DNA of 64,000 nucleotides, from contig NZ_CP136051.1 of the NCBI RefSeq assembly GCF_032999765.1, positions 5,722,501-5,786,500 on the forward strand, read 5' to 3'. Origin of the DNA: Imperialibacter roseus (lineage in GTDB: Bacteria > Bacteroidota > Bacteroidia > Cytophagales > Cyclobacteriaceae). The translations under genes and the position numbers were made by a program. Position 1 is the first letter of the stretch, and every line of letters starts with the position of its first letter. A model generated the notes under the pieces. The model did not search any database, had not been told where the DNA came from, and saw only the letters and a program-made list of their open reading frames with translations. Shown here one piece after another: positions 20,536 through 47,820 of this stretch.

Positions 20536-20545
20536 TAGCCGTGAT

Positions 20546-24338: not shown

Positions 24339-24571
24339 TTTTGCGCTGTTTGATTGGTCAGAATTTTGAAACTTTCGGCCCTGTAACGGGGAAGAGTGGA
24401 AAAGATACAGAAGATGAAAAAATATTTTTCCCTGGAAACCGGGATTAGTTGGCACTGAGGTTACAGATGAAAGCAGTTTGATGTACAACGACAGCCACAG
24501 CGCCGCATATTATACCCGCCAGGAACCAGATCTTAATTCAAATGGCTTTTTAACAAAAGGAATATGTTTTT

Positions 24572-27697: not shown

Positions 27698-29887
27698 ATG
27701 CAAAAAAGACTCAACTACTTGTTGCTGCCGGCGTTCATCATGCTCATTCATTGGGCAGAAGCGCAAAGCGGAAAAAAGCCCATCGTCACGTCTGACCTTA
27801 TGAAAATTGTTACCTCCTCACAGCTGGAGGTATCACCCGATACCAGGAAAGCGGTGATGGTCGTCACCAAAAGAGATCAAAAAGGGGATGACTATTTTTA
27901 TAGCCACAACCTTTACATGCTCGATCTTGAAAAAGGTGGAGAGCCTATTCAGCTTACGTTCGGAAAAAAGAGCGACTCACAGCCTACCTGGGCTCCTGAC
28001 GGTGAAAAAATCGCCTTTGTGCGATCCGACGACGGAAAGTCGCAAATATGGATACTGCCGTTAACCGGGGGCGAAGCCTATCCACTTACCTCTGCCAAGC
28101 ACGGTGCTTCTGGCCCCCGCTGGGCTCCCGACGGAAAATCTATTCTCTTTTCGTCGTCCATCCCCGATTGGGACACTGAAGGCACCCCAACCTGGGCTTA
28201 TGAAAGACCAGGAAGAGCATTCAAAGACGAGCCCAACTGGAAGGCGCTAAAAGACGAAGAGAAAAAAGATATCAAGTCTACTCCTGATGGCGACCTTGGA
28301 GAGCTTCGGGCATGGCTGGCCAAAAATGCCGTCGACAAAAACCCACGGGTGTTTGTGAATCAGGATTTCCAGGCGGAACAGGGACTCAACCCCGAGATGA
28401 AGTATCGGCATTTATTCATTCAGTCGCTTGATGCCGGGAAAGCCAGCCAACTCACCAAAGGGTTCCAGGATTTTGCCGGTGGCGATTGGTCGCCGGATGG
28501 AAAAACCATTGTTTGCTCCTCTGTGGCTTACAAAGTGGAGCCCGACAAACAAAGCCACTCTGACCTTTGGAAAATTGACGTCACGTCAGGTTCTGCTACC
28601 TCCTTCCTTCATATGGAGGGTTTTTCCTTAGGCAATCCACAGTTCTCGCCCGACGGAAAGTCCATACTGTTTTACATGCGAGATGATGTAAACAGGCATG
28701 CTACGCAAAATGACCTGGGGCTTGTCAACACCGAGGGCAGCGGCGCAAAAATGATTACAGCGGAGTTTGACAGAGACGCTGGTGGGCCGGTCTTTTCTCC
28801 TGATAACAAAAAAATCTATTTTACTGCGTCGTCCGAAGGGGACATTCCTTTGTACAGCTACGACCTGAAGAAAGGCGAAATCGTTACCCTTTTGGAAGGA
28901 GACAAAGGCATCAATGACTTTGCGCTTGCAGGCAAAAAAATCATCATGACCATTACCGACTTCAACAACCCTCTGGAAGTATACAGCATGGACGTGAAGA
29001 GCGGGGCTTTGACAGCGTTAACACATTTCAACTCGGATTGGCTGAAAGACAAAATCGTCACTCCCGTTTCGGAATACTGGGTCACCCGACCCGACGGCGT
29101 AAAAGTACAGTACTGGGTGATGCAACCCGTTGGCTTCAAACAAGGAACCAAATATCCGACCATACTGGAAATCCATGGTGGGCCTTCTGCCATGTGGGGG
29201 CCGTCGGGACTCAGTATGTGGCATGAATTTCAGTTGCTTTCCAGCTGGGGTTATGGGGTGGTTTTCAGTAACCCACGGGGTAGTGGCGGCTACGGCGATG
29301 CGTTCAAAAAAGGTAATTATAGAGACTGGGGCCACGGGCCTGCCAACGACATTCTGGCAGCTTTGGATGATGCTACTTCCAAAAACAGCTGGGTGGATAC
29401 CGACCAGCTATTTGTAACAGGAGGTAGCTATGCCGGTTACATGGTGGCCTGGCTAGTGACACAAGACCAACGCTTCAAAGCAGCCAATGCGCAAAGAGGT
29501 GTATACGATCTCACTACCTTTATGGGAGAAGGAAATGCCTGGCGGCTGGTACCAACGCATTTTGGCTACCCTTGGGAAGAGGGCGTGCAGGAAATCCTTG
29601 ATGCCAACTCACCAATTACCTTCATTGACCAAATTACGACCCCTCTACTCATCATGCACTCCGATCAGGACCTGAGAACTGGCACCATCCAGTCGGAAAT
29701 GATGTACAAGAGCCTGAAAGCACTTGATAGGCCTGTGGAATATGTGCGCTATCCGGGCGAAGGGCATGAGCTAAGCAGAAGCGGCAATCCGCTGCGCATG
29801 ATGGATAGGCTCGGCCGGTTTATTGAGTTTTTTGAAAGGTATGTAAAGCACCCGGAGGCTCCTGCAGCTACTGTGGGAGAAGATTAA
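27698..29887 (+). CDS. Exported S9 family peptidase (prolyl oligopeptidase-like)
   Basis: The 729-residue product has a signal peptide (LLLPAFIMLIHWAEAQ). The N-terminal half is a WD40-like/TolB-type propeller (PTWAPDGEKIAFVRSDDGKSQIW, GPRWAPDGKSILFSSS, PQFSPDGKSILFYMR). The C-terminal alpha/beta-hydrolase domain starts around residue 460 with ILEIHGGPSAMWG and GYGVVFSNPRGSGGYG; the catalytic Ser577 is in GGSYAGYM, Asp658 in HSDQDLRTG and His690 in GEGHELS. It should cleave oligopeptides in the periplasm. A strong terminator follows. Confidence 0.94.
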   Translation: MQKRLNYLLLPAFIMLIHWAEAQSGKKPIVTSDLMKIVTSSQLEVSPDTRKAVMVVTKRDQKGDDYFYSHNLYMLDLEKGGEPIQLTFGKKSDSQPTWAPDGEKIAFVRSDDGKSQIWILPLTGGEAYPLTSAKHGASGPRWAPDGKSILFSSSIPDWDTEGTPTWAYERPGRAFKDEPNWKALKDEEKKDIKSTPDGDLGELRAWLAKNAVDKNPRVFVNQDFQAEQGLNPEMKYRHLFIQSLDAGKASQLTKGFQDFAGGDWSPDGKTIVCSSVAYKVEPDKQSHSDLWKIDVTSGSATSFLHMEGFSLGNPQFSPDGKSILFYMRDDVNRHATQNDLGLVNTEGSGAKMITAEFDRDAGGPVFSPDNKKIYFTASSEGDIPLYSYDLKKGEIVTLLEGDKGINDFALAGKKIIMTITDFNNPLEVYSMDVKSGALTALTHFNSDWLKDKIVTPVSEYWVTRPDGVKVQYWVMQPVGFKQGTKYPTILEIHGGPSAMWGPSGLSMWHEFQLLSSWGYGVVFSNPRGSGGYGDAFKKGNYRDWGHGPANDILAALDDATSKNSWVDTDQLFVTGGSYAGYMVAWLVTQDQRFKAANAQRGVYDLTTFMGEGNAWRLVPTHFGYPWEEGVQEILDANSPITFIDQITTPLLIMHSDQDLRTGTIQSEMMYKSLKALDRPVEYVRYPGEGHELSRSGNPLRMMDRLGRFIEFFERYVKHPEAPAATVGED

Positions 29888-29966
29888 AGCTAGACCTATT
29901 TTCCTCGGCCTGATTTTGTGCTTAAAGTCAAAGTCTTATGGGGTGAGAACCTATCTTCTACCTTTT

Positions 29967-29995
29967 AATAGCGCCTTACGGCGCTATTTTTTTTC
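29967..29995 (+). terminator. Intrinsic terminator after the S9 peptidase gene
   Basis: Arms AATAGCGCC (29967-29975) and GGCGCTATT (29980-29988) pair perfectly with a TTAC loop and continue into a run of T. The rest of the 29888-30436 interval is AT-rich with no other gene that I can support. Confidence 0.92.
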
Positions 29996-30342
29996 TGTGC
30001 ATTGATACTCTTCCCAAATATTCGGCAATGTCACCAACGTTTATAATCAACCAGTTGCTCTCCTCAAAAAGCACATTTTGTTAACGCTCTATAAAATAGA
30101 CCGTTATGTGCCATATATTTTTCCTGCTGTCTCTCAATGGTCAGCTGTAAATATAAGAATATTCATATTTTATGTCTCATAAAAAGTGTGCAATTAATCG
30201 ATGCAAACGATTGCTGAGGGTAGAAAACACAATGCGCTGTATAAGTTCGTATGCCCTAGTTTAAAATTTGTGCGGACACACTTTCTAGCAGCTCATGAGA
30301 GCATTATCGTTTCGTTACTCTATAAAGCCAGGTGTTTCTTCG

Positions 30343-30370
30343 TTGGTATATAAAAAATTTTATATATTTA
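30343..30370 (+). promoter_or_regulatory. Candidate Bacteroidota promoter of the SusC gene
   Basis: A TTG (30343-30345) is followed after 17 bases by TATATTTA (30363-30370), close to the TAnnTTTG -7 consensus. It lies about 67 bases upstream of the SusC ATG in a very AT-rich leader with an A/T palindrome. The spacing is a little short, so this is a suggestion. Confidence 0.4.
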
Positions 30371-30436
30371 TCCCCTCAACACCCCCTGTTGATTATACCC
30401 TTTAGTTCGAATCAATTATCTATTAAAACATTTTCT

Positions 30437-33400
30437 ATGAAGAAAAAGCTTACCCATTTATTGGTGTTTTGCTTATTGGGCTTCTATGCCCATGCGCAAA
30501 ACCGAGTGATTTCAGGTAAGGTCACCGACGAGGAAGGCGGTGGACTCCCTGGTGTTAACATTTCTGTCAAGGGCACGAGCGTCGGCACAGTTACCGATGT
30601 GGAAGGTGATTATAAAATCACTATGTCTGCCGACGGTACAACCCTCGTTTTCTCTTTTATTGGCTTCACCACACAAGAGGTAGAAGTGGGTTCAAGGTCA
30701 GTGATTGACATTTCGATGACAGCTGACTTTACCCAATTGGATGAGGTAGTAGTTACTTCCTTTGGTTTGGAAAAAGACAAAAAGTCTCTTGGTTACTCCG
30801 TTACTCAGGTAAGTGGTGACCAGTTTACCGACTCCCGTACTACCAACTTGGGAAATGCACTGACAGGTAAAATAGCCGGTGTGAATGTAAGTACGCCTGC
30901 TTCAGGAGCAGCGGGATCAAGCCGTGTGATTATCAGAGGGGGATCTTCCCTGGGTGGATCGGACCAGCCACTTTATGTGGTAAACGGTGTGCCAATGGAC
31001 AATTCTACACTTGGCTCTGCGGGTATGTGGGGTGGAAATGACGGTGGAGATGGTCTTTCTTCTATCAACCCTGATGACATCGAGAGCCTTTCGGTATTGA
31101 AAGGAAACACGGCCGCAGCACTATATGGTGCCCGTGCCGCCAATGGCGTCATTTTGATTACAACAAAGTCAGGTAAGTCAAGAAAAGGTGTCGGCGTTAG
31201 CTTTAACTCCAACTTTACCATGGACAACGTGATTGATCTTACCGACTTTCAGAAAGAGTATGGAATAGGTGTGGATGGCGAAAAGCCTGCCAACGAAACC
31301 GCTGCCCTCGATTACGGCAACTCCTCCTGGGGAGGCAAACTTGACGGATCAAGCGTTGTTCAGTTTGACGGTGTATCAAGACCTTACTCCGATACGGGAG
31401 AAACCATCAAGGACTTCTATCGCACTGGCAAAACATGGACTAATACATTGGCTCTTTCCGGTGGAAACGAAAAAGGCAACTTCCGTTTTTCGGCTTCTGA
31501 TTTGAATAATGACGATATCATGCCGAATGCAAGCTTCGACAGAAAGCTTTTCACAACAGGCTTGAATGGCGCTTTTGGAAACCTTGAGCTAAAACTGACA
31601 GGCCAGTACTCTAAGGAAAAGGCCATCAACCGACCAAGATTGTCGGACTCTCCGGGTAACGCCAACTATGCCATCCTTACAAAGCCTGCTTCTCTTTCTT
31701 ACGAGACGTTGAAGGGTGATCCTGATAAATTAGGAGCAAAAGAGGATGGAACAGAATTCCGTTATCAGGGAAGCAATTATATACAGAACCCTTACTGGGC
31801 AGCTTATCAGTTCAATAGAGAGGATAATAAGGACCGTGTTCTGGGCAACATCGCATTGAAGTACAACTTCTTTGAGTGGCTGTATGTGCAAGGCCGTGTC
31901 GGCACCGACTTTGTGTCCGTAGCTTCTGACAACTACGAGCCTTATGGCACAGCCTACGCTACTACCGGAAGCTTCAACCAGAACATGAGAACCATTAGAG
32001 AAGACAATGCCGATATGTTCATTGGCGTTAACAAAACTTTCGGTGACATTTCGGTAGACGGTCTGGTTGGTGGAAACCGAATGAGAAAAACAGCTGAGCA
32101 GCTAAACGCTGGTGGCTCTGGCTTGAACATTCCCTTTTTCCACAGCGTAACCAACGTTACAAATCAGGCTTACAGCTACAGTTTTTCTGAATACGGTATC
32201 AACTCCATCTTCGGATCAGCAAACATCGGATTCAGAAATTACCTGTTCCTAAACGTGACTGGTCGTCAGGACAAGTTTTCGACCCTTGCGGACGAAAACA
32301 ACTCTCTTTTCTATCCTTCTGCCGGTTTGAGCTTCGTTTTCTCGGACGTGTTTACGATGCCTGAGTTCTTCACCTTTGGAAAGGTGAGAGCGTCGTGGGC
32401 CCAGGTGGGCGGTGGTGCACCAGATCCCTATTCACTTAACCTGACCTACGGACTTGTAGGGCAAGGCCACCAGGGAGCAGTTTTAGGATCCATCAGCAAC
32501 GGTTCCATTCCTAACGCTGCCCTTCAACCATATATTTCCAGCGAAATTGAAGTTGGGTTTGATGTAAGATTGCTGGACAACAGGATTGGTATTGACCTTG
32601 CCTACTATGACAGGACCACAACAGACGACATCCTGAATACAACTATTTCGGGGACATCTGGCTTTGGCTCCACTACGATCAACGTCGGTGAGCTGAGCAA
32701 CAAGGGTGTGGAACTGCTGTTAAAAGGAACGCCAATAGTTGCCAATGGCTTCAGGTGGGATGTTTCCTTCAACTACGCTCACAACATAAGCAACGTGATC
32801 AATCTTGGCACGAACGCACTGGGTGAGCCCATCGAGTTCCTTAACCTTGACGAAGCGAGAACACAACAGGAGAGAATTCGTCACTATGTAGGCCAGCCTT
32901 TGGGAGCCATTGCAGGTTACAAGCAAATGGAAATCGACGGCCAAAAAGTATATGACGCCGACGGATATCCAGTGAGAGGAGACTTCGACCTTATCGCACC
33001 GGGACGTCACCCTGTCAGCGCCGGCATTAGCAATACATTCACCTATAAAAACTTTACGCTCGACTTCCTGATCGATATCCGCAGTGGTGGTTATCTGGCA
33101 TCAAGTACAAACGTAGTAGCCTACAACCTTGGCCTGCACAAAGAAACCCTCCCAGGTCGTGAAAACGGGCTGAGCATTTCCGGAGTGGATGAAGAAGGAC
33201 AAGCACAGACCTGGAACATTGCTCCTGAAAATGTAGACAACTACTACAGCCGCTATTCTCAAATCACTGACAATTTCGTGTACAATGCGTCTTTCGGTAA
33301 ACTCAGGTCGCTGTCTTTGGGTTATAGCCTGCCTTCTACGCTATTGGCGAAGACCCCAATTGAGTCGCTTCGGTTCTCAATAGTTGGTAGAAACCTGGCT

Positions 33401-33532
33401 TTGCTTTGGTCAAGTGTTCCAAATATTGACCCTGAGTCTGCTTACAACAATAGCGGAAATGCGCAGGGGCTTGACTTCTTCGCCATGCCGACAACAAGAA
33501 ACTTTGGTTTCAACCTGTCGGCGTCATTCTAA
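30437..33532 (+). CDS. SusC/RagA family TonB-linked outer-membrane receptor
   Basis: The 1031-residue protein is a TonB-dependent transporter. From the ATG at 30437 it has a signal peptide (LLVFCLLGFYAHAQ), a carboxypeptidase-like regulatory domain (VISGKVTDEEGGGLPGVNI through MTADFTQLDEVVVTSFG), then a plug with VIIRGGSSLGGSDQPLYVVNGVPM, and a long beta barrel ending in NFGFNLSASF, the aromatic terminus typical of outer-membrane barrels. With its SusD partner it imports a large nutrient, probably an oligosaccharide or peptide. No glycoside hydrolase lies nearby, so the substrate cannot be read from context. Longer frames upstream (ATG at 30332) lack a signal peptide. Confidence 0.96.
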   Translation: MKKKLTHLLVFCLLGFYAHAQNRVISGKVTDEEGGGLPGVNISVKGTSVGTVTDVEGDYKITMSADGTTLVFSFIGFTTQEVEVGSRSVIDISMTADFTQLDEVVVTSFGLEKDKKSLGYSVTQVSGDQFTDSRTTNLGNALTGKIAGVNVSTPASGAAGSSRVIIRGGSSLGGSDQPLYVVNGVPMDNSTLGSAGMWGGNDGGDGLSSINPDDIESLSVLKGNTAAALYGARAANGVILITTKSGKSRKGVGVSFNSNFTMDNVIDLTDFQKEYGIGVDGEKPANETAALDYGNSSWGGKLDGSSVVQFDGVSRPYSDTGETIKDFYRTGKTWTNTLALSGGNEKGNFRFSASDLNNDDIMPNASFDRKLFTTGLNGAFGNLELKLTGQYSKEKAINRPRLSDSPGNANYAILTKPASLSYETLKGDPDKLGAKEDGTEFRYQGSNYIQNPYWAAYQFNREDNKDRVLGNIALKYNFFEWLYVQGRVGTDFVSVASDNYEPYGTAYATTGSFNQNMRTIREDNADMFIGVNKTFGDISVDGLVGGNRMRKTAEQLNAGGSGLNIPFFHSVTNVTNQAYSYSFSEYGINSIFGSANIGFRNYLFLNVTGRQDKFSTLADENNSLFYPSAGLSFVFSDVFTMPEFFTFGKVRASWAQVGGGAPDPYSLNLTYGLVGQGHQGAVLGSISNGSIPNAALQPYISSEIEVGFDVRLLDNRIGIDLAYYDRTTTDDILNTTISGTSGFGSTTINVGELSNKGVELLLKGTPIVANGFRWDVSFNYAHNISNVINLGTNALGEPIEFLNLDEARTQQERIRHYVGQPLGAIAGYKQMEIDGQKVYDADGYPVRGDFDLIAPGRHPVSAGISNTFTYKNFTLDFLIDIRSGGYLASSTNVVAYNLGLHKETLPGRENGLSISGVDEEGQAQTWNIAPENVDNYYSRYSQITDNFVYNASFGKLRSLSLGYSLPSTLLAKTPIESLRFSIVGRNLALLWSSVPNIDPESAYNNSGNAQGLDFFAMPTTRNFGFNLSASF

Positions 33533-33539
33533 ACTTTAA

Positions 33540-35108
33540 ATGAAGAGAAATATGAAGAATATAAAGAAATATTTAAGCGCCGCATTGGTGCTCGTCTTCA
33601 TCATGAGTTCATGTAACGAAGACAACCTGATTGAGCTCAACATAAACAAAAATGCCTCCGAAGAAATAGACCTTTCGTATCTGCTGGCATATGGACAGTT
33701 GAGGGTAGCTGGTGCCCGCTACGAAAACTGGAGAACGAACTTGATTTATTGCTCTACTATGATCCAACACAACGCCTCGTTGCAAGGTTACTGGAGTGGC
33801 GATAAATACTACTACAACGCACAATACAGCGGTGCTTTTATGGAAAGTCACTATACCGACGCCATCAAAACACTGACTCATGTAGTGGATCAAACAGCGG
33901 ACGTGCCAGAGTTGGTTAACCTGCATGGTGCGGCCACTATCATGCGTTCTTTCGATCTTCACAAAATGACTGATCTTTATGGAAACGTTCCTTTCTTCCA
34001 GGCTGGAAGGGGGCTCGACGGAGCCGAAAACTGGTTCCCAAAGTACGATGCTCAATCTGAAATCTATGCGGCCCTGATAAGCGATATTAAAGCAGCAAGA
34101 GACGGATTTGACCCAAGCATTAACAATTTGGGCTCTCAGGACATCCTGTTTAAGGGAGATACTGAGAAGTGGGTGAAGTTTGCGAATTCATTACTAATGA
34201 GAATAGCGCTTCGTATGAGCAAAGTGAATCCTACAGAAGCGCAAGCTGTGTTTGTTGAAGCAGCTGGCGGTGCAATGACATCAAATGATGACAACGCATT
34301 TTTGGCTCAACAAAACGGTCCTGCTGGTGATACCAACCAGAACGGCACTTCACTTGTGCTTTCCAATGCCGGCGGTGGCGGTGGCGATGCCAGCAATGGC
34401 CGTGTCAGTGAATTCCTTGTAAATTGGCTAACGGACAACAATGACCCACGTAAAATGATCATTGTAGGTGGTACCGGTGACCCGTATAATAGCACTACCT
34501 GGAACACCGATCCCGATAGTCAACAAGGCTTGCCCAATGGTTACACTTCGCAAACCATAACGGCCATCAATCCTGATTTTGAAAGCGTAAATGAGTACTC
34601 TTTCATCAATCGTGAGATTTTAGATCTGGATGATCCTTATCCATTCCTTAGCTACGCTGAAGTAGAACTGATGAAAGCTGAGGCAGCGGTGAAGGGTTGG
34701 TTGTCATCTGATCCTGAAGCACATTTTGTGGCTGGAGTTACAGCAGCCATCCAGTCATGGGAGGCATTTGGCATCTCAAATGCAGCAAGTGCTTCGGAAA
34801 TCAGCACATACATCGCCGGGCTTGACTTTGCGGGAGCATCAGACGCTGCTAAACTGGAATTGATTGGCGAGCAATACTGGGCCGCCACTTACCTGAACCA
34901 CGTTGAGGCATGGAACAACTGGAGAAGAACAGGATTTCCTGCCTTCACTCCTACAAGCGACCCGAACAACATCACTGGCGGAACTGTGCCAAGAAGGTTG
35001 AGGTACTATGAGTCAGAAGCTGGCAGCAACCCTGACAACTACCAAAGCGCCGTTCAGGCCCAGGGGCCAGACCTTCTTACCACAAGAATGTGGTGGGATG
35101 TTGAATAA
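33540..35108 (+). CDS. SusD/RagB family nutrient-binding lipoprotein
   Basis: The 522-residue product starts seven bases after the SusC stop and is a lipoprotein (FIMSSCNEDN, Cys after MSS) that caps the SusC barrel and binds substrate at the surface. SusD-like motifs include TDLYGNVPFFQAGRG and PFLSYAEVELMKAEAAVKGW, matching the SusD/RagB imelysin-like subfamily. The ATG at 33540 is used; an ATG at 33552 (MKNIKKYL) is also possible. A terminator follows, so the pair may be one transcription unit, with the PSCyt genes starting from their own promoter. Confidence 0.94.
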   Translation: MKRNMKNIKKYLSAALVLVFIMSSCNEDNLIELNINKNASEEIDLSYLLAYGQLRVAGARYENWRTNLIYCSTMIQHNASLQGYWSGDKYYYNAQYSGAFMESHYTDAIKTLTHVVDQTADVPELVNLHGAATIMRSFDLHKMTDLYGNVPFFQAGRGLDGAENWFPKYDAQSEIYAALISDIKAARDGFDPSINNLGSQDILFKGDTEKWVKFANSLLMRIALRMSKVNPTEAQAVFVEAAGGAMTSNDDNAFLAQQNGPAGDTNQNGTSLVLSNAGGGGGDASNGRVSEFLVNWLTDNNDPRKMIIVGGTGDPYNSTTWNTDPDSQQGLPNGYTSQTITAINPDFESVNEYSFINREILDLDDPYPFLSYAEVELMKAEAAVKGWLSSDPEAHFVAGVTAAIQSWEAFGISNAASASEISTYIAGLDFAGASDAAKLELIGEQYWAATYLNHVEAWNNWRRTGFPAFTPTSDPNNITGGTVPRRLRYYESEAGSNPDNYQSAVQAQGPDLLTTRMWWDVE

Positions 35109-35148
35109 ATTCTCTTTCCATTGATATTTCAAATACTCATCTATTGAT

Positions 35149-35177
35149 AAGGGCACCTTCGGGTGCCTTTATTTTTC
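35149..35177 (+). terminator. Intrinsic terminator after susD
   Basis: AAGGGCACC (35149-35157) pairs with GGTGCCTTT (35162-35170), one G-U pair, over a TTCG-type loop and is followed by ATTTTT. This would separate the SusCD pair from the PSCyt genes, at least partly. Confidence 0.75.
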
Positions 35178-35214
35178 CACTCTTCCCAGCCACAACTTAT
35201 TAATGGACTATGCA

Positions 35215-35246
35215 TTGTTATCCTTGCCAAACCTTCTTAAATTTTG
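35215..35246 (+). promoter_or_regulatory. Candidate promoter of the PSCyt/DUF1549 cluster
   Basis: TTG (35215-35217) and, after 20 bases, TAAATTTTG (35238-35246), close to the Bacteroidota pattern TTG-N19-21-TAnnTTTG with one extra base. It lies about 24 bases upstream of the ATG. If real, the four following genes have their own transcript. Confidence 0.4.
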
Positions 35247-35269
35247 ATTTTACATAACCCTACTTGAAC

Positions 35270-37588
35270 ATGTATACCAGGCTCATCACCGGGCTTCTGT
35301 CCATTGCCTTTGCGGGATTAATTATTTCCCTGCCTGGATGCAAAGACTCAACATCTTCAGGAGACCTGCCCGAAACCGTCAGCTACAATTTTCATATCCG
35401 CCCTTTGATGAGCGACAGGTGCTTCGCTTGCCATGGTCCCGATAAAAACAAAGTGAAAGCCGGCCTAAGGCTTGATATTCCTGAGCTGGCTCTCGGTGAA
35501 TTGAAAGAGAATAAAGGGAAATTTGCCATCGTCCCTGGAAAGCCAGAGGAGTCGGAGTTGGTGAAGCGCATTTCTTCTACCGACCCTACCTACCAAATGC
35601 CGTCGCCTGAGTCGCACCTGCCTCTTTTGACTGAAAATGAAATAGCGCTTGTTAAAAAATGGATCAGGCAGGGCGCAAAATTTGAAAAGCTTTGGTCCTT
35701 CACGTCTCCCAAAAAAGCGGTCCTTCCAAAAGTGAAGGGCGAAGACTGGCCTAAAACCGACCTTGACCTTTTCGTCGTGAAAAAAATGGAGGAAAAAGGA
35801 CTGAAACCCAACGAAGAGGCGGACAAAGAACGCTTGCTGAAAAGGGTTTCTCTCGATCTGACCGGGCTGCCTCCGTCGCTTGATCTCATGGATCGCTTTA
35901 TGGCCGACAAAAGCGATGAGGCTTATGAAAAGGTTGTGGACGAATTGATGAACAGCCCTGCTTATGGAGAAAGAATGGCCGTTCACTGGCTGGACGTCGG
36001 CCGCTATTCCGATTCCTACGGCTATCAGGACGATAATATCCGCACGCAATGGCCCTGGCGGGATTGGGTGATCCATGCCTTCAACGACAACCTTCCTTAC
36101 GACAAATTTCTCACCTGGCAGTTGGCTGGAGACATGCTTCCCGACGCCGATAAAGAGAAAATCCTTGCTACCGGCTTTTTGAGAAACCATAAATACACAG
36201 AGGAAGGTGGTGTGATAGAAGAGGAGTATAGAATCGAGTACCTCCTCGACAAAACCAAGACATATAGTAAAGGAATTATTGGTCTTACGGTAGAATGTGC
36301 CCAGTGCCACGATCACAAATACGATCCGATTTCGCAAAAGGACTACTATAAAATGTTGGCCTTCTTTAACAATACACCTGAAGTCGGGTACGAGGGCGAC
36401 ATATCCGTTTCGAAACCAGCTAAAGCACCAAGGCTTGAAATTACAACGGCCGATCTTGATGGAGTACTTTCATTTATCAGACAGCTGGAAAAAGACACCA
36501 TGATGGTGTCAGTGATGGACGAGCTTGACACCCTGCGCAAAACTTACGTGCTCAACCGGGGGCAGTACGATTCGCCAACAGATGAAGTGAAACCACAACC
36601 TCTGTCAGAAGTCATGGTTTTTGATACCACTGCCTACCCAAGAAACCGCTTAGGCTTGGCCAAATGGACCGTCGACAAAAACAATCCTTTGACAGCCAGG
36701 GTATTTGTGAATCAGGTATGGCAAATGATCTTCGGCCAGGGAATTGTAAAAACCGCCGGCGACTTTGGTATGCAGGGCGACCTACCTTCACACCCTGAGC
36801 TGCTCGACTGGCTGGCGGTCGACTTTATGGAAAATGACTGGGACATCAAATACCTGGTCAAGCAAATCGTGACATCGGCTACGTACAGGCAATCCAGCAG
36901 CGTTTCGAAAGAAAAGCTGGCCATCGACCCCGACAATATTTACCTCAGCCATGGGCCTCGCTTCCGGTTACCGGCTGAGTTCGTAAAAGACCTCATTCTG
37001 GCTAGCAGTGGACTTTTGGTGAACAAAATCGGTGGCCCCAGTGTGAAGGCTTATCAACCCGACGGCCTTTGGGAGGCTGCCACTTCGGGCAGAGGTGTTT
37101 TAGCAACTTACCAGCAAGACCATGGGGAAGATTTGTACCGCCGGGGTATGTACACTTTCATCAAACTCACACTGCCTCCTCCCTCTCTGATGATTTTCGA
37201 TGGCAGCAACAGAGACCAATGTGAGGTAAAACGACCTCAGACCAACACGCCTCTCCAAGCACTTGTCATGATGAACGATCCAACCATGTTAGAAGCTTCA
37301 CGGGTGCTGGCCGAAAAGCTGGTCAAGGAGCAGACGGGCACAGAAGACAAAATAACAAAAGCCTTCAGGCTGATTGTGTGCCGGGTGCCGAAGGAGTCTG
37401 AGAAAGATTTGCTGAACAGTTATTTTTCAGAACAACTGGGCATTTACCAAAGCCAGGCTATTGACCCTTCGGAGGTGCTAAATGTGGGTGAATTTCCTCA
37501 TTTGGAAGTAGAGAAAAGTGAGGCGGCAGCGCTTGCCAACGTGATTCAACTGATCTATAACATGGAGGAATCCATTACAAAGACATAA
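35270..37588 (+). CDS. PSCyt1-DUF1549-DUF1553 lipoprotein with c-type heme
   Basis: The 772-residue product has a lipoprotein signal (FAGLIISLPGC). An N-terminal cytochrome domain of the planctomycete type carries the heme motif CFACH at residues 51-55 (RPLMSDRCFACHGPD). DUF1549 follows (WPKTDLDLFVVKKMEEKGL, RVSLDLTGLPPSLDLMDRF, AVHWLDVGRYSDSYGYQDD), and then a second CAQCH at 343-347 (VECAQCHDHKYDPISQKDYY), and DUF1553 (RVFVNQVWQMIFGQGIVKTAGDFG, RDQCEVKRPQTNTPLQALVMMNDP). These proteins are abundant in Planctomycetes and of unknown function. The next gene encodes DUF1501, their usual partner. I start at the ATG at 35270; the frame's first codon is a TTG two codons upstream. Confidence 0.93.
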   Translation: MYTRLITGLLSIAFAGLIISLPGCKDSTSSGDLPETVSYNFHIRPLMSDRCFACHGPDKNKVKAGLRLDIPELALGELKENKGKFAIVPGKPEESELVKRISSTDPTYQMPSPESHLPLLTENEIALVKKWIRQGAKFEKLWSFTSPKKAVLPKVKGEDWPKTDLDLFVVKKMEEKGLKPNEEADKERLLKRVSLDLTGLPPSLDLMDRFMADKSDEAYEKVVDELMNSPAYGERMAVHWLDVGRYSDSYGYQDDNIRTQWPWRDWVIHAFNDNLPYDKFLTWQLAGDMLPDADKEKILATGFLRNHKYTEEGGVIEEEYRIEYLLDKTKTYSKGIIGLTVECAQCHDHKYDPISQKDYYKMLAFFNNTPEVGYEGDISVSKPAKAPRLEITTADLDGVLSFIRQLEKDTMMVSVMDELDTLRKTYVLNRGQYDSPTDEVKPQPLSEVMVFDTTAYPRNRLGLAKWTVDKNNPLTARVFVNQVWQMIFGQGIVKTAGDFGMQGDLPSHPELLDWLAVDFMENDWDIKYLVKQIVTSATYRQSSSVSKEKLAIDPDNIYLSHGPRFRLPAEFVKDLILASSGLLVNKIGGPSVKAYQPDGLWEAATSGRGVLATYQQDHGEDLYRRGMYTFIKLTLPPPSLMIFDGSNRDQCEVKRPQTNTPLQALVMMNDPTMLEASRVLAEKLVKEQTGTEDKITKAFRLIVCRVPKESEKDLLNSYFSEQLGIYQSQAIDPSEVLNVGEFPHLEVEKSEAAALANVIQLIYNMEESITKT

Positions 37589-37591
37589 GCC

Positions 37592-39046
37592 ATGGAAAAA
37601 GAACAACTGGAAAACGGCTTAAACCAAAACAGGCGAAAATTTCTTTCGAAGTTAAGTCTCGGCATTGGTAGTGCGGCACTGGGTTCGCTGCTGATTCCTG
37701 ATTTATTCAAGGGAGGCTCTAGTCCGGAAGAAGAGCTTTTTGCACAGCTCCCCCATTTTGCGCCAAAGGCCAAACGGATCATTTACCTCTTCCAAAATGG
37801 TGCCCCCTCTCAGCTTGACCTTTTCGACTACAAACCCATGCTGCAAAAAATGCACGGGGAAGACTTGCCAGAGTCGATTCGTCAGGGTCAGCGATTGACA
37901 GGCATGACGTCCGGGCAGTCCAAATTTCCACTGGCCGGAACAATTTTCGACTTTAAACAATACGGCCAGTCTCGTGCCTGGATCAGCGACTTGCTGCCCC
38001 ACACCGCCAGCATAGCTGACGAACTCTGCTTCGTAAAAAGCATTTATACCGAGGCCATCAACCACGACCCGGCACTCACCTTTTTCCAGACCGGTGCCCA
38101 GGTAGGCAACCGCCCAAGCATGGGGGCATGGCTGAGTTACGGGCTGGGAAGTGAAAACAAAAACCTCCCCGCTTTCTGCGTTTTGCTTTCAAAAGGAAAA
38201 GGTAATGGCCAGGGAGTTTACTCAAAGCTTTGGACCAACGGCTTCCTCGACTCCGTTCATCAGGGTGTCCAGTTCTCCAGTGGCGACGACCCTGTGCTCT
38301 ACCTCAACAACCCCGAGGGAATGGACAGGGCGGAAAGAAGAAAAATGCTCGATCACCTGGCAGCGTTGAATCAGGAAAACTACGAAGAGTTCGGGGATCC
38401 TGAGATTGCTGCCAAAATTCAACAATACGAGTTGGCTTACCGAATGCAGACTTCGGTGCCAGAGCTTACAAATTTAAAAAATGAGCCGGAGTCAATTGTG
38501 AAAATGTACGGCCCCGAATGCATGGTGCCCGGTACCTATGCCGCCAACTGCCTGCTGGCCCGCAAGCTCAGCGAAGGTGGCGTTCGGTTTGTGCAACTCT
38601 ACCATCAGGGGTGGGATGCCCACGATAACCTGCCTGGCCAAATTGTTGGCCAGTGCAAAGATGTGGATCAATCGTCGGCAGCACTCGTAATGGATTTGAA
38701 GCAAAGAGGCCTCCTCGACGAAACCCTCGTAATTTGGGGCGGTGAGTTTGGCAGAACCAACTATTGCCAGGGCAAGCTCACTGGCGACAACTACGGCCGT
38801 GACCACCATCCCCGGTGCTTCACTATATGGATGGCAGGTGGGGGCATCAAGCCTGGAATGGTCTACGGGGAAACTGACGAGTTTGGCTATAATATCACCG
38901 AAAACCCCGTGCATGTCAACGATTTTCATGCGACCGTGCTCAACCAAATGGGGCTTGATCATGAGAAGCTGATCTACAAGCATTTGGGAAGAAGGTACCG
39001 GTTGACTGATGTAGCCGGAAAGGTAGTGAAAGGAATTATTGCTTAG
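37592..39046 (+). CDS. DUF1501 protein with twin-arginine-like leader
   Basis: The 484-residue product has a leader RRKFLSKLSLGIGSAALGSLL, which looks like a Tat signal. The body is a sulfatase/alkaline-phosphatase-like fold of DUF1501: AKRIIYLFQNGAPSQLDLFDYKP, HDPALTFFQTGAQVGNRPSMGAWLSYGLG, GVRFVQLYHQGWDAHDNLP, LVIWGGEFGRTNYCQG and GRDHHPRCFTIWMAGGGIKPGM, with His and Asp residues that could bind metals. It starts three bases after the PSCyt1 gene stop. Function is unknown; in Planctomycetes it always accompanies DUF1549/DUF1553 genes, and they are thought to work together on some exported substrate. Confidence 0.92.
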   Translation: MEKEQLENGLNQNRRKFLSKLSLGIGSAALGSLLIPDLFKGGSSPEEELFAQLPHFAPKAKRIIYLFQNGAPSQLDLFDYKPMLQKMHGEDLPESIRQGQRLTGMTSGQSKFPLAGTIFDFKQYGQSRAWISDLLPHTASIADELCFVKSIYTEAINHDPALTFFQTGAQVGNRPSMGAWLSYGLGSENKNLPAFCVLLSKGKGNGQGVYSKLWTNGFLDSVHQGVQFSSGDDPVLYLNNPEGMDRAERRKMLDHLAALNQENYEEFGDPEIAAKIQQYELAYRMQTSVPELTNLKNEPESIVKMYGPECMVPGTYAANCLLARKLSEGGVRFVQLYHQGWDAHDNLPGQIVGQCKDVDQSSAALVMDLKQRGLLDETLVIWGGEFGRTNYCQGKLTGDNYGRDHHPRCFTIWMAGGGIKPGMVYGETDEFGYNITENPVHVNDFHATVLNQMGLDHEKLIYKHLGRRYRLTDVAGKVVKGIIA

Positions 39047-39062
39047 CAAGAACACCCGAAAA

Positions 39063-40100
39063 ATGAAAAGAAGAACTTTTGTAAAAAACAGTGCCCTTGC
39101 CGCTTCGGCTGTTATGGCTGGGCCTTCTCTGTTAGCCAGAAATCCGAAGCAAGACATCATCCTCGGCCACGGAAAAAAGCGCTACAAGCTCGACACCAAA
39201 TGGAGCCAGGCCGACATCACCAAATACCCGGTGAAAGACTGCCACGAAATGGTGCAGGACAGCAAAGGCCGCATCCTGCTCCTCACCAACGAGACCAAAA
39301 ACAATGTCATTATCTACGACAAAAAAGGGAAGCTGCTTTCAACGTGGGGATCGGAATACCCCGGGGCTCATGGGTTGACTTTGTTTGACGAAAATGGCAC
39401 CGAAGTGCTCTTCATCTGCGACAACAACCGCCATCAGGTAATTAAAACAGACATGAACGGGCGAGTACTTTTGACGCTCGACTATCCAAAAGAAACGGGC
39501 GAATACACAAAGGCCGACGAATATGTGCCAACTGAAACGGCCATTGCTCCCAACGGGGATATCTTTGTTGCAGATGGCTACGGCAAAGACTTTATCACGC
39601 AGTACGACAGCAAAGGCAACTACATCCGTCACTTTGGCGGCCGGGGAGAAACTAATGCCCACCTCCTCAATGCCCATGGCGTTTGCATGGATTTCCGTGA
39701 TCCAGCCAATCCATCATTGGTTATCAGCTCCCGTCAGCAAATGGCTTTCAAGCGCTATACGCTTGACGGCAAATACTTGTCGACCATTTCTCTACCCGGC
39801 GCCTGGGTTTGCAGGCCGGTTATTAAAGGCGACTATTTGTATGCTGCGGTGCTTATGAGCGCCAGTCAACCATGGAAGCAATCTGGGTTTGTAACGATTC
39901 TCGACAAGAAAGACAAAGTCGTTTCCAACATCGCTGCGAATGCCCCGGAATATGAAGCCGGCCAATTGAAAGAACTTTTCCAAACCGATGCCGTTTTTGC
40001 CTACCCCCACGATGTGTGCATCGACGATGAAGAAAATCTTTATGTAGCTCAGTGGAATTCGGGCCAGGTATACCCTTATAAACTAACGCCTGTTTCATGA
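39063..40100 (+). CDS. Exported NHL-type six-bladed beta-propeller protein
   Basis: The 345-residue product starts at the ATG at 39063 with a Tat-like leader (MKRRTFVKNSALAASAVMAG). Its body is built of repeats of a propeller type (DCHEMVQDSKGRILLLTN, ETAIAPNGDIFVADGYGKDF, FAYPHDVCIDDEENLYVAQW), similar to NHL repeats or peptidyl-alpha-hydroxyglycine lyases. It could bind a ligand or process a substrate together with the DUF1501 and cytochrome proteins. It follows the DUF1501 gene by 16 bases and shares four bases with the next gene (ATGA). Confidence 0.85.
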   Translation: MKRRTFVKNSALAASAVMAGPSLLARNPKQDIILGHGKKRYKLDTKWSQADITKYPVKDCHEMVQDSKGRILLLTNETKNNVIIYDKKGKLLSTWGSEYPGAHGLTLFDENGTEVLFICDNNRHQVIKTDMNGRVLLTLDYPKETGEYTKADEYVPTETAIAPNGDIFVADGYGKDFITQYDSKGNYIRHFGGRGETNAHLLNAHGVCMDFRDPANPSLVISSRQQMAFKRYTLDGKYLSTISLPGAWVCRPVIKGDYLYAAVLMSASQPWKQSGFVTILDKKDKVVSNIAANAPEYEAGQLKELFQTDAVFAYPHDVCIDDEENLYVAQWNSGQVYPYKLTPVS

Positions 40101-42238
40101 GCAAGCTTCGGGGCTTGATCAGCAATGGCAGCTTCTTTGTTTGCTGCTTGCTGGCGTTTCTTCTCGTATTCGAAAACAGTTTTACTACACCCGCCTGGCT
40201 TCAGGTGATAGGGAGGATGCACCCTTTACTCCTGCATTTTCCCATAGCCTTATTGGTTGTTTATGCCCTGCTGGTTTTTTTAAGCAAAACACCAGCCGAG
40301 TCGCCAGCTGATGAATCACTTCGAGCAGACGACCTGCTTCTTCTGGGAAGTTTTACCGCTGCTCTTTCAGCACTCATGGGTTTATTGCTCTCAAAAGAGG
40401 GCGGCTATGCTGAAGGAAGCCTGACCTGGCACAAATGGGGTGGAGCGCTGGTCGCTTTTTCATCTTATGGATGGTATACCTTCAGAAAGAAGACGAATCT
40501 ACAGCCTATGCTGTCAAAAGGTATTCCCGTGGGAATGTTGGTGCTGATCACTTTTGCCGGTCACCAGGGCGCCAACATTACACACGGAGACAATTTTGTG
40601 CTGGCGCCCATCACCCCTGACGCAAGTTTCGAAGATGTTCCTTTCGCTGAGGCCGTAATTTACGATCACATGGTGCAGCCTATTCTGAAAGAAAAGTGCA
40701 TGGGCTGCCACAACAGCCGCAAAGCCAAAGGTGAGCTGGTGATGGAAAGTCCGGAAACTATTTTGGCTGGTGGTAAAAACGGACTGCTATGGGACTCTCT
40801 GAATTATGAAGCCAGCCTGCTTCTCAAACGCATTCACTTGCCGGAATCGGTAGAAGAACATATGCCGCCCGAGGGTAAAAACCAGCTCACAGATGAAGAG
40901 AAGGAAGTACTTGAAGCCTGGATTGCCGCTGGTGCGCCTTTCGACGCTTTGGCAGTCGAAACTGCTCCGGATCAACCCCTTTACCAAATAGCACAGGCAA
41001 AATTCAACGCCACCAAAAGCTATGATTTTGAGGCCGCCGACCCCGTACTGGTTGAATCGCTGAACTCCAACTACCGGATCATCAGTCCTATTGCCCTCAA
41101 CTCACCAGCACTCACGGTCAGCTTTTTTTCTAGCGAAGCGTTCGAACCAGCGCAACTAAAAGAACTCGACAAAATCCGCACACAGGTAGTTGAACTGAGC
41201 CTCAACAAAATTCCGGTCAAAGATGAAGACCTGGCTTTGTTGGCGGCTTTTGAAAACCTGAAAAAACTTCATCTGAACTTCACCAATGTTTCGGACAAAG
41301 GACTGTCTTCATTGGCGAAACTTTCGAACCTGCGAGAACTATCACTATCAGGAACGGCCGTTACTGCGGCGGGCGTCTCTGAGCTGAGGCCTCTCTCCAC
41401 TCTTCAAAAAATATTTATCTGGAATACAGGGATTGATGCAGGGCAGGTTGCTGAGTTAAAGGAAGTTTTTCCCAATGTCTCCTTTGAGTCGGGCTTCGAT
41501 GACAAAGGCGCCGTTATTCAGCTATCGGCTCCGGTAATTGTTGGCAACGATGCCTTCTTCACCGACCCCATTTCCGTGAAGGTGAAGCATTACCTCAACG
41601 GAGTTACTCTGCGATATACGCTCGATGAATCCGCACCCGACAGCATCAGTTCCCCAATCTACGAAGATGGAATTCCTTTGGATGGCAATGCAACCATTAA
41701 TGTCAAAGCATTCAAAGACGGATGGTACAGCAGCGAAATGGTGTCGAAATCATTTCTGAGAAGTTCGATTACACCAGGCAGTGTTAGTCTGTTGACTCCG
41801 CCGAACCCGAAATACAAAGGGAAGCTGGAACAAGCGCTTTTCGACCATATAAAAGGAACCAATATCCACACAGATGGCAACTGGCTAGGCTACCAGGGCG
41901 AACCCATGGATGTGCAAATAATGTTAGGTGAAGAGATTCCTCAAAAGTCAATCACCGTGAGCTGCCTCAATAACACAGGAGGTTGGATCATGCCTCCCGC
42001 CAGTATCGACATCTGGTACGGTGACCATGAAAAAAATCTGAAACTTTGGAAGAAAAACAAAGTGGATCAGCCAACCAAAAACTTACCGGTTGGCCCCGCT
42101 TTCTACACTTTCGATTTGCCTAAAGAAAAATACAAGATGCTTAAGATTCATATCATGCCCGTTACCAAACTTCCAGCCTGGCACGATGCCAAGGGAAACC
42201 CCGGGTGGGTATTTGTCGATGAGGTTCTTTTGAATTAA
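40097..42238 (+). CDS. Membrane protein with DUF2231, cytochrome c (PSCyt1), leucine-rich repeats and chitobiase-like C-terminal domain
   Basis: The 713-residue product combines, in order: an N-terminal membrane domain of DUF2231 type (about 1-155; helices such as LLHFPIALLVVYALLVFL and AGHQGANITHGDNF with possible heme-b His), a cytochrome c domain with CMGCH at 201-205 (VQPILKEKCMGCHNSRKAKGELVM, MPPEGKNQLTDEEKEVLEAW), leucine-rich repeats (about 360-460; LKKLHLNFTNVSDKGLSSLAKL), and a chitobiase/hexosaminidase C-terminal-like domain (LRYTLDESAPDSISSPIYEDG). The last part looks like a discoidin or carbohydrate-binding module. It probably sits in the cytoplasmic membrane facing the periplasm and could pass electrons to the PSCyt1 protein. 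Confidence 0.88.
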   Translation: MSKLRGLISNGSFFVCCLLAFLLVFENSFTTPAWLQVIGRMHPLLLHFPIALLVVYALLVFLSKTPAESPADESLRADDLLLLGSFTAALSALMGLLLSKEGGYAEGSLTWHKWGGALVAFSSYGWYTFRKKTNLQPMLSKGIPVGMLVLITFAGHQGANITHGDNFVLAPITPDASFEDVPFAEAVIYDHMVQPILKEKCMGCHNSRKAKGELVMESPETILAGGKNGLLWDSLNYEASLLLKRIHLPESVEEHMPPEGKNQLTDEEKEVLEAWIAAGAPFDALAVETAPDQPLYQIAQAKFNATKSYDFEAADPVLVESLNSNYRIISPIALNSPALTVSFFSSEAFEPAQLKELDKIRTQVVELSLNKIPVKDEDLALLAAFENLKKLHLNFTNVSDKGLSSLAKLSNLRELSLSGTAVTAAGVSELRPLSTLQKIFIWNTGIDAGQVAELKEVFPNVSFESGFDDKGAVIQLSAPVIVGNDAFFTDPISVKVKHYLNGVTLRYTLDESAPDSISSPIYEDGIPLDGNATINVKAFKDGWYSSEMVSKSFLRSSITPGSVSLLTPPNPKYKGKLEQALFDHIKGTNIHTDGNWLGYQGEPMDVQIMLGEEIPQKSITVSCLNNTGGWIMPPASIDIWYGDHEKNLKLWKKNKVDQPTKNLPVGPAFYTFDLPKEKYKMLKIHIMPVTKLPAWHDAKGNPGWVFVDEVLLN

Positions 42239-42360
42239 TCCAATTTTGACAGGTTAAGTAGCGTATGATTTTTCTCCTGATTTACCCCTACCCTTCTATG
42301 TTGTAATCCAAGAAGTGGCCAGCAATACTTTGCCTCCATGTTCCTTGTTAGTCATGATAA

Positions 42361-42519
42361 ATCATCATAAAAACATCCTTCTATCAACGGACTAGTAAGC
42401 CGCATTTCCTTGTTTAATTTCTATGAATGAAAGCAGCAGCCTAAAGGAAACGAATACTAAAATTTAGCATCGCAAGGGCTGAGTAGCTGTCTTTCAAGTG
42501 AAGTTTGTTTTATGATGAT
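42361..42519 (-). ncRNA. Candidate bridge RNA region of the IS110-family element
   Basis: The non-coding end downstream of the transposase holds a long-range 12-bp inverted repeat (ATCATCATAAAA at 42361-42372 and TTTTATGATGAT at 42508-42519) enclosing other stems, for example TTTCCTT (42405-42411) with AAGGAAA (42444-42450) and CTAAA/TTTAG near 42458. IS110-family elements make a structured RNA in a non-coding end that pairs with target and donor DNA; IS1111-type elements make it downstream of the transposase. The loops that would recognise target and donor cannot be assigned by eye. Confidence 0.45.
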
Positions 42520-42526
42520 AGTCTCT

Positions 42527-43606
42527 TCATTTAACCACCGCATATTCATACTCTGTTTCATTTTTCAATACAAACCTTATACGATTCAATAACTTTTTAG
42601 CTATTCGAATAATAGCTCTATTTGGCTTCATTCGCTTACACAAATTACTATAAGCCAGAGCTAGAGCAGGATCAATTCTACTGGCAACCCATGCACTTTC
42701 AATAAGTACCCCTCTCAATGGTTTATTGCTTCTGGGTGTAATGCTTCCTGTTCGATCTTTATCTCCTGAAGAATTAGTAGATGGAATCAGTCCAATATAA
42801 GCACAAAGTTTATCCAGGTTCTTGAACCGGTTGATCTGCTCGAGTTCTGTAAGCAAAGTCATCGACACAACCAGTCCTACTCCGGGAATACTTTTAAGGC
42901 AGTTAATTTTATGAGCATACGCCTCACTTTTAGCTATTGTCCTTAGCTGCTTATTGATTTTGAGTAGTGTAGACCGTAAATGATCAACTGTATCCACCGT
43001 GTCGGCTATTACGGTATGGCCGTAATCTGTCGATAGCCTTATGGTTGCTAACCATTTGGAGAAATTAGCTGACCAGTGGCGTGATGCAGAGTCCAGTTCT
43101 GCCGGAATTTCAATACCATAGAAATGTAAAGAAGCTTTGACCCTGGTCTTGTTTCTACTGATTTCCTTGACCAAAGTTTTACGGTACCTTACCAGCCCAC
43201 GAAGTTCTTCTATAGCCCTGTCTGGAACATGGATAGCTTCTAATTCTCCAGTACGTAAACAGCGTGCAATTTTTCTACTATCTCGGCTGTCCTCCTTTTG
43301 TTTCTTCTCTTTATCTGTGGTAGGAATGTCTGCTGGGTTGACTACAATATTGTGTATGCCACATGCCTCCAGAGATCGGTGAACACTGTAACCGCAAAAT
43401 CCTGCCTCATAGGCTGAATAATATTCGGCCCCTGGAAAGGTTCTCCTTAGATAGCTGGCTAAAGTCTCAGCTCTCGGATCCTGTGAAAACGTCTTATGTG
43501 TAAGCTGTTCCAATAATATGGTCACTTTCCAACTGGTTAAATGCACATCAATGCCAACGAATACCTTTTGACCTTCGAAGTTCAATTCTTTACTTTTACC
43601 TTTCAT
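42527..43606 (-). CDS. IS110 family transposase
   Basis: The 359-residue recombinase has the N-terminal RuvC-like DEDD domain (Asp20 in VGIDVHLTSW, Glu67 in SAYEAGF, Asp106 and Asp109 in KEDSRDSRKIARCL) and the C-terminal Tnp domain (LKSIPGVGLVVSMTLLTELEQINRF, LCAYIGLIPSTNSSGDKDRTG) with the likely nucleophile Ser304 in LIESAWVASRIDP. Spacing agrees with known IS110 recombinases. It appears intact. The ATG at 43606-43604 forms the end of a 13-bp inverted repeat whose other arm is 45 bases upstream, so translation may be controlled by mRNA folding. Confidence 0.95.
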   Translation of the reverse strand: MKGKSKELNFEGQKVFVGIDVHLTSWKVTILLEQLTHKTFSQDPRAETLASYLRRTFPGAEYYSAYEAGFCGYSVHRSLEACGIHNIVVNPADIPTTDKEKKQKEDSRDSRKIARCLRTGELEAIHVPDRAIEELRGLVRYRKTLVKEISRNKTRVKASLHFYGIEIPAELDSASRHWSANFSKWLATIRLSTDYGHTVIADTVDTVDHLRSTLLKINKQLRTIAKSEAYAHKINCLKSIPGVGLVVSMTLLTELEQINRFKNLDKLCAYIGLIPSTNSSGDKDRTGSITPRSNKPLRGVLIESAWVASRIDPALALAYSNLCKRMKPNRAIIRIAKKLLNRIRFVLKNETEYEYAVVK

Positions 43607-43674
43607 AAGCTTCTATCTTTTTAGTTTGACAAGTGTTGATGTCTATCCAAAACTAAATTGCATAGAAGCTTATG
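43604..43674 (-). promoter_or_regulatory. 13-bp inverted repeat sequestering the transposase start codon
   Basis: CATAAGCTTCTAT at 43604-43616 and ATAGAAGCTTATG at 43662-43674 are perfect complements separated by 45 bases. In the minus-strand transcript the start ATG is the last three bases of the second arm, so the hairpin would hide it. This fits the frequent control of transposases by mRNA secondary structure. Confidence 0.5.
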
Positions 43675-43863
43675 CTTTTACAATCATAAGGCCTAAAGGG
43701 AGTCAGGAGAAAAATCTGACTGTCCCTTTTGGGGTGCCTGGCTTAGGATTCAGGGTAAAACAGGCAGGTTTTTCGAATTAGACAAAGTAGACTTAATCCT
43801 CCTGGAAAAAAGCTATCTCTTCCAACACCAGTTTTTCCTATATTGGTACAAAACCGACCTGTC

Positions 43864-46791: not shown

Positions 46792-46893
46792 TATGAAGTT
46801 GGAAGCATAACTGAGGAAAGGAAGTTATTGCGTCAATGTGTACAGGTGTTATCTTAGTTGCAAATAAAAAGAACAGTATGTCCACTAATTATC

Positions 46894-47733: not shown

Positions 47734-47820
47734 GCCACCTGCGTAATTCCCAATTTGGCATTGCCGAGTTTCTCTTATCTTGGGCTCCAATTGAAAACCC
47801 AAACTCTGCATTGCATCGAT

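Follow-up and report, generated by a model that had tools for sequence, protein, structure and literature searches.

The 64,000-nucleotide stretch analysed here (hereafter the window) belongs to the genome of Imperialibacter roseus (Bacteroidota, Cyclobacteriaceae), which is 6.75 Mb long and consists of a single contig. Between positions 30437 and 42238 it harbors six co-directional genes: a SusC/SusD pair (SusCD) and, behind it, four genes referred to as the cassette. The same set had been recognized in a preliminary description made from the sequence alone, i.e., SusC/SusD followed by PSCyt1-DUF1549-DUF1553, DUF1501, NHL-type and DUF2231-cytochrome-LRR proteins, with at least three heme c motifs and without a hydrolase for polysaccharides. 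All these elements were found, and profile scans of 30437-42238 detected no polysaccharide hydrolase among the six genes. The features of the locus are as follows.

30437 (ATG)..33532, + strand: SusC/RagA TonB-linked outer-membrane transporter (TIGR04056 638 bits, TIGR04057 signature)
33540..35108, + strand: SusD-like_2 lipoprotein, partner of SusC (PF12771 270 bits)
35146..35173, + strand: terminator-like hairpin between SusD and the cassette (12-bp stem, UUCG loop, T-rich tail)
35270..37588, + strand: PSCyt1-PSCyt2(DUF1549)-PSD1(DUF1553) diheme protein with a lipoprotein-like signal
35420..35434, + strand: heme c motif 1, CxxCH, residue 53 of the PSCyt protein
36296..36310, + strand: heme c motif 2, CxxCH, residue 345, within PSCyt2
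37592..39046, + strand: DUF1501 protein with a Tat-type (twin-arginine translocation) signal, alkaline-phosphatase-superfamily fold and an altered motif at the metal dyad
39063..40100, + strand: NHL-type beta-propeller with a Tat-type signal (PF01436 34.6 bits)
40097..42238, + strand: DUF2231 membrane part, monoheme PSCyt1, leucine-rich repeats (LRR) and beta-hexosaminidase-type C-terminal part (PF09990, PF07635, PF13516, PF13290)
40697..40711, + strand: heme c motif 3, CxxCH, residue 201 of the DUF2231 protein
29967..29988, + strand: terminator-like site between the upstream S9 peptidase and SusC (terminator scan)

The encoded proteins

The transporter belongs to the SusC/RagA family, its score exceeding the TIGR04056 cut-off (638 vs 368 bits). 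The four cassette genes touch or overlap, and a gap of 161 bases separates SusD from the PSCyt gene. The PSCyt protein contains all three domains and two CxxCH motifs, as expected for the PSCyt1-PSCyt2-PSD1 family; including that of the DUF2231 protein, three such motifs were counted in the five proteins from SusD to DUF2231. Since exactly two CxxCH are present in 205 of the 207 PSCyt homologues of at least 700 residues, the two of the PSCyt protein are not due to chance, and C53, C56, H57 as well as C345, C348, H349 are invariant in the A1 alignment. Among the DUF2231-type homologues, a single CxxCH is carried by 112/118 long and 23/36 shorter proteins. As for the export signals, a Tat-like RRx[FL] motif lies near the N-terminus of 180/187 DUF1501 and 41/49 NHL proteins; a lipobox-like motif was found in only 86/207 PSCyt proteins, whose starts were chosen mechanically.

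The DUF1501 protein has the fold of the alkaline phosphatase superfamily. The aligned members of this superfamily (NPP/ENPP, sulfatases) possess an Asp-His metal pair, whereas Glu-Phe (E385-F386) occupies this place in 32/32 DUF1501 sequences, as placed by alignments that are below threshold (E 0.08-0.23). Residues 501-713 of the DUF2231 protein align with the C-terminal end of a beta-hexosaminidase (6q63, E 4.9e-17), and the NHL protein matches NHL propellers in a search of PDB sequences. The same search with the PSCyt protein gave matches limited to its cytochrome part, the PSCyt1 portion resembling FoxE and a hydrazine synthase cytochrome domain, and VIA-align of PSCyt2-PSD1 retrieved, apart from the cytochrome part, only scattered helical matches. 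The profile comparison between PSD1 and DUF1800 gave an E-value of 0.022 (0.0022, with low probability, in a wider alignment). This score is not clearly specific, because the PSCyt2 part alone scores similarly (E 0.0026) at a different place of DUF1800; the DUF1501 profile gave 0.24. These sequence comparisons hint that the two partner families of DUF1501, PSD1 and DUF1800, may be related. A DUF1501 homologue adjoins DUF1800 in 15 of 25 short loci (L268-L292).

Distribution of the cassette and of its SusCD partners

Cassette loci were collected by match score, i.e., not randomly, in three sets (60 + 60 + 80, 200 in all); two of them (L093 and L261) were dropped since no open frame scored as PSCyt, and 198 remained, whose counts are not independent because at least seven loci are repeats. 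A run was defined as the co-directional genes around PSCyt with gaps under 400. The run contains DUF1501 in 180/198 loci, the DUF2231 type in 132/198, NHL in 47/198 and SusC in 11/198. The cassette is conserved with respect to DUF1501 and the DUF2231 type; since SusC is absent from 187/198 runs, SusCD is ruled out as a regular part of it. Planctomycete, Verrucomicrobia and Lentisphaerae contigs are among the matches, too. Some match to the PSCyt protein was found in 129/196 genomes of the family, part of the E-values fitting the cytochrome part only, and PSD1 in 49/395 genomes in a search of the phylum. In the genome holding the window, PSCyt2 is matched at two further places, and the PSD1 matches add up to four.

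In the phylogenetic tree, the PSCyt protein of the window falls within a clade of 40 rows with support 100, in which 17 rows are Chitinophagaceae and 6 Spirosomataceae; the window's own family is represented only by the window, L034, L035, L076, L077 and L219. NHL is present in 25 of the 40 rows, as in the window. The nearest kin beyond L035 is unsure, because the inner forks have supports of 13 and 15. This distribution suggests that the cassette was acquired from a lineage of the Chitinophagaceae/Spirosomataceae type.

As to the other genes of the runs, 125 of the 179 de-duplicated partners were scanned, after removal of those that were very long, of housekeeping genes, of one long operon and of loci from outside the Bacteroidota; the counts are uncontrolled. 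The largest counts among 202 families were four matches each to sulfatase and short-chain dehydrogenase models. Runs lacking SusCD include one with a sulfatase and a trehalase (L237) and one with mannitol-dehydrogenase and PfkB proteins (L161), besides others with ABC-transporter, efflux and radical SAM genes. In 19/60 loci of the first set, a protein group comes after the cassette of which one member, from L046, was tested and has a sugar-isomerase domain. A fabH-efp-accB-accC gene group lies near the cassette in 19/60 loci of this set (e.g., L046:11282-14822), a vicinity that suggests vertical inheritance of that cassette copy in part of the family.

The idea that SusCD might never be found with these genes elsewhere does not stand: SusC or SusD occurs in the run in 13/199 rows, one of them being the window, and the tree requires 11 changes. 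In the window, L034, L051, L090, L144, L189, L199 and L211, SusD lies directly, or one gene, before PSCyt or a doubled cassette; SusCD follows the cassette in L148, and the arrangement is looser in L067, L173, L253 and L088, where a partial SusD is four genes distant. Among the first 60 loci, a SusCD of the window type is found at the cassette in the congener only, L051 and L090 having a different one; outside the window and the congener, the SusC/SusD at cassettes are not orthologues of the window's pair, and SusC identity outside L034 is about 25-40%, in some cases over short stretches only. The partners in SusCD-containing runs comprise GH3 (L189), a fucosidase (L067), 6-phosphogluconate dehydrogenase (L199), a MacB-type protein (L173) and an FG-GAP/ASPIC protein (L148). 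In L253, PSCyt lies behind SusCD, with PhoD-like and sulfatase genes before it and genes for a second sulfatase and a GFO/IDH/MocA oxidoreductase behind it; no DUF1501 follows PSCyt, and a sulfatase precedes it. Two Cyclobacterium records (L253:2-14297 and L235) show a PSCyt gene without DUF1501 amid SusC/SusD genes. In L144 (a genome of the same order) and L211 (a Spirosoma metagenome-assembled genome) the order is SusC-SusD-DUF2231type-DUF1501-PSCyt-DUF1501-DUF2231type, i.e., a doubled cassette behind SusCD.

SusC is enriched among the non-cassette genes of the runs: 10/292 in runs vs 15/1461 outside with gaps under 200 (p 0.004), and 12/465 vs 13/1288 with gaps under 400 (p 0.02), corresponding to odds ratios of 2.6 to 3.4. 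This enrichment is weak, the loci being partly related. At least 31 SusC were scored in each of 13 genomes, in addition to 61-158 unscored candidates.

Coupling or adjacency of SusCD and the cassette

Besides the congener, 19 other genomes of the family encode a SusD that is 50-54% identical to that of the window, and the comparison of 20 SusD loci (9.7-17.6 kb each; L123 being more distant) revealed that a GH18-type group follows SusD in 15/20, with LacI, ROK and FAD-oxidoreductase types in 10 each; one of the five loci without a GH18-type gene ends right after SusD, and these names rest on one Pfam-tested member per group. The SusD of a relative with a GH18 locus (L104) retrieves the window SusD as its best match (597 bits vs 260 for the next in the genome), and the two are reciprocal best matches. 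Thus, this SusCD goes with a GH18-type gene in the relatives, the partner genes being different in the genus of the window; a relative of GH18 (42% identity) is encoded elsewhere in its genome.

The junction between the two parts is marked by the hairpin at 35146..35173, which was spotted in the sequence and then folded (minimum free energy -17.9 kcal/mol, z -4.0), being missing from the list of the terminator scan. It is unchanged in the congener. According to a simple script, a hairpin with a T-rich tail lies within 130 bases after SusD in 18/19 orthologous loci (one locus was too short), compared with 1/20 after SusC, 0/15 after the GH18-type gene, 24/133 after other genes and 6/173 inside genes. 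At the other SusD-cassette junctions, a hairpin was found in L189 and none in L051, L090, L144, L199 and L211. It would seem to be an inherited trait of this SusCD that sets SusD apart from the GH18-type gene as well, and it may attenuate transcription rather than end it. In the region 29700-43900, the promoter scan gave 11 sites vs 15.6 in shuffles and the terminator scan 19 vs 15.6 +/- 3.4; since there is no excess, the sites of these scans, that at 29967 included, are weak evidence. No promoter of the Bacteroidota type (TTTG/TAnnTTTG) was found in 29801-42300.

On this basis, SusCD and cassette might be mere neighbours, the former ending at its own terminator and serving enzymes encoded elsewhere, the latter, acquired as a unit, having a substrate of its own. 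We regard this as a serious possibility, though still somewhat short of an even one. In its favor are the hairpin itself, the prevalence of runs without SusC, the lack of any cassette in the 20 orthologous SusD loci within stretches of up to 17.6 kb, the few members of the host family in the cassette clade, and the unequal divergence from the congener (98% identity in the gap and 97-98% in SusCD vs 80-92% in the cassette genes). However, a similar hairpin precedes the GH18-type gene in the relatives, so that a functional unit need not end there, and the notion that the hairpin alone refutes coupling was rejected; moreover, the SusCD-cassette junction is kept in both congeners, and other such junctions exist.

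The reading pursued here, i.e., that SusCD and cassette are functionally coupled for a glycan of the N-acetylglucosamine type, is held tentatively, as possible rather than probable. A glycan-type SusCD, belonging in relatives to a GH18 locus of the chitin or N-glycan type, would stand beside an apparently acquired four-gene periplasmic cassette whose role might be oxidative sugar processing in the periplasm. Joint action, substrate, catalysis, direction of the electron flow and role of each protein can be proposed as follows. SusCD would bring into the periplasm an oligosaccharide, most likely containing N-acetylglucosamine; the Tat-exported DUF1501 enzyme and the diheme PSCyt1-PSCyt2-PSD1 lipoprotein would act on it; electrons might then pass to the monoheme DUF2231 membrane protein and from there to the respiratory chain, while the hexosaminidase-type C-terminal part of the former may hold the sugar. 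Two cytochrome c assembly gene matches in the genome are in line with this proposal, as are the conservation of the cassette, the recurrence of SusC or SusD in its runs, the sugar-related run partners, the SusD match to GH18-type loci and the hexosaminidase-like C-terminal part of the DUF2231 protein. A strong PSCyt match is present in 13/13 genera with a window-type SusD vs 40/84 overall (p 2e-5, uncorrected for kinship; E-value limits of 1e-160 for SusD and 1e-180 for PSCyt).

Several observations weigh against such coupling. Because few family members fall in the PSCyt clade of the window, most of the cassettes that enter the co-occurrence test are from a different clade. The presence of the hairpin in the 161-base gap puts joint transcription in question, and the divergence from the congener and the 187/198 runs without SusC, given above, point in the same direction. 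Scans of the six genes revealed no flavin, pyrroloquinoline quinone (PQQ) or molybdopterin enzyme, peptidases lie on both sides of the locus, the run partners are mixed, including efflux, ABC-transporter and radical SAM proteins, and the nearest solved SusC by sequence is 5fq6_B (BT_2264, 431 bits), a match that indicates kinship only. BT_2264 is presumably a peptide binder (SusCD of the BT_2263/BT_2264 type).

The proposal of the preliminary description that a redox step is coupled to import is, accordingly, borne out in part, by the other SusCD-cassette junctions, some with sulfatases, GH3, fucosidase or sugar dehydrogenases. A defined system of uptake plus redox degradation does not emerge, given the runs without SusC, the low odds ratio and the hairpin between the parts. 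The observation as such was correct, and the idea of a new system for uptake and redox conversion is plausible, though short of proof. In a bolder version, the cassette would be a periplasmic oxidative glycan machine in which DUF1501 is a new enzyme of the alkaline phosphatase fold with a rebuilt metal site, PSCyt takes electrons from sugar and passes them to the DUF2231 cytochrome, and the whole repeatedly joins SusCD as an oxidative alternative to glycosidases, here replacing GH18; this appears unlikely as a whole.

Rather less likely still is a peptide locus, in which SusCD would import peptides, the S9, M20 and M14 peptidases digest them, and the cassette help to oxidise peptide- or glycopeptide-derived products. 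It would fit the kinship with BT_2264 and the presence of an S9 peptidase upstream and of M20 and M14 peptidases downstream, all beyond the six-gene span, the M20 gene following the cassette directly in the congener. However, a stretch of 549 bases that includes a terminator-like site separates the S9 gene from SusC, which rules this peptidase out as part of the unit; an insertion sequence precedes M20 in the window, and the orthologous SusCD are accompanied by GH18-, LacI- and ROK-type genes. Compared with the congener, the window has about 1.6 kb extra between the cassette and M20, including this insertion sequence, an IS110-family element (42300-43850) directly behind the cassette, of which three further near-identical copies exist in the genome; no full-length copy was found in the congener, and the insertion is probably recent. 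It is followed by M20, cryptochrome/photolyase, ThuA and M14 genes, the ThuA-domain protein and then the M14 carboxypeptidase-like protein being encoded at 46858-50337; in the congener, ThuA comes after M20 with no photolyase in between. Farther upstream (18997-23065), the window encodes a PorP/SprF-OmpA protein and, next to it, a large FG-GAP protein that carries a type IX secretion signal domain.

Finally, a respiratory or envelope-stress module, with hemes handling periplasmic electrons or oxidants and no carbon substrate of its own, is improbable: the likeness of PSCyt1 to FoxE and a hydrazine synthase cytochrome domain and, in PMC2754498, the increase under three stresses of the Rhodopirellula sigma factor proposed to control PSCyt2-PSD1 would agree with it, but the hexosaminidase-type part of the DUF2231 protein and partners such as sulfatases, glycosidases, sugar dehydrogenases and the sugar-isomerase-domain protein would not.

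Comparison with known systems

The PSCyt2-PSD1 proteins were treated by Studholme 2004, as cited in PMC5615132, and each domain occurs 41 times in Rhodopirellula (PMC2754498, PMC5615132). According to He et al. 2017 (PMC5615132), the genes neighbouring PSCyt2-PSD1 in Planctomycetes and Verrucomicrobia are conserved and encode families of unknown function, sulfatases are found nearby, and a role in carbohydrate metabolism was proposed for the PSCyt proteins. Domains, conserved neighbours and suspected carbohydrate role are, therefore, already known from that text; one of the conserved neighbour families probably corresponds to DUF1501. The excerpts of PMC5615132, PMC2754498, PMC11495043, PMC5122149 and PMC13274419 report no tested function, and in the open-licence PMC literature no article was found that joins SusD with DUF1501 and DUF1553, nor one on DUF1501, DUF1553 and DUF1549 together.

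The window protein has the same domains as those Planctomycete and Verrucomicrobia systems, but it belongs to a member of the Bacteroidota, is accompanied by an NHL propeller and a DUF2231-cytochrome-LRR protein, and stands beside SusCD. In the DUF1800-DUF1501 pair (PMC5122149), a DUF1501 homologue likewise lies beside another exported protein; unlike in the window cassette, no heme domain is reported there. If confirmed by structure, the altered motif of DUF1501 would point to an active site not yet characterised within a large superfamily of enzymes.

With the polysaccharide utilization loci (PULs) of Bacteroidota, the window shares a SusC/SusD pair heading the locus and exported proteins behind it. 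It differs from them in that no glycosidase, lyase, sulfatase or dedicated regulator was found in the six-gene span; a scan of ten genes, with the S9 peptidase as the first and the photolyase as the last, gave no hybrid two-component system (HTCS), extracytoplasmic function (ECF) sigma with FecR, or LacI, and the opposite strand encodes a sigma factor at 23793-24488. The function of PSCyt/PSD1 becomes testable in a well-studied type of Bacteroidota system: a SusCD with relatives in GH18-type loci, placed before one PSCyt copy, offers a short list of substrates and a SusD with a measurable ligand. Another close counterpart is the GH18 locus of the window's own family, which has the reciprocal-best SusD, a 60% identical SusC and the hairpin after SusD; there, however, SusCD is accompanied by GH18-, LacI-, ROK- and FAD-oxidoreductase-type genes, in place of which the window and its congener harbor the cassette.

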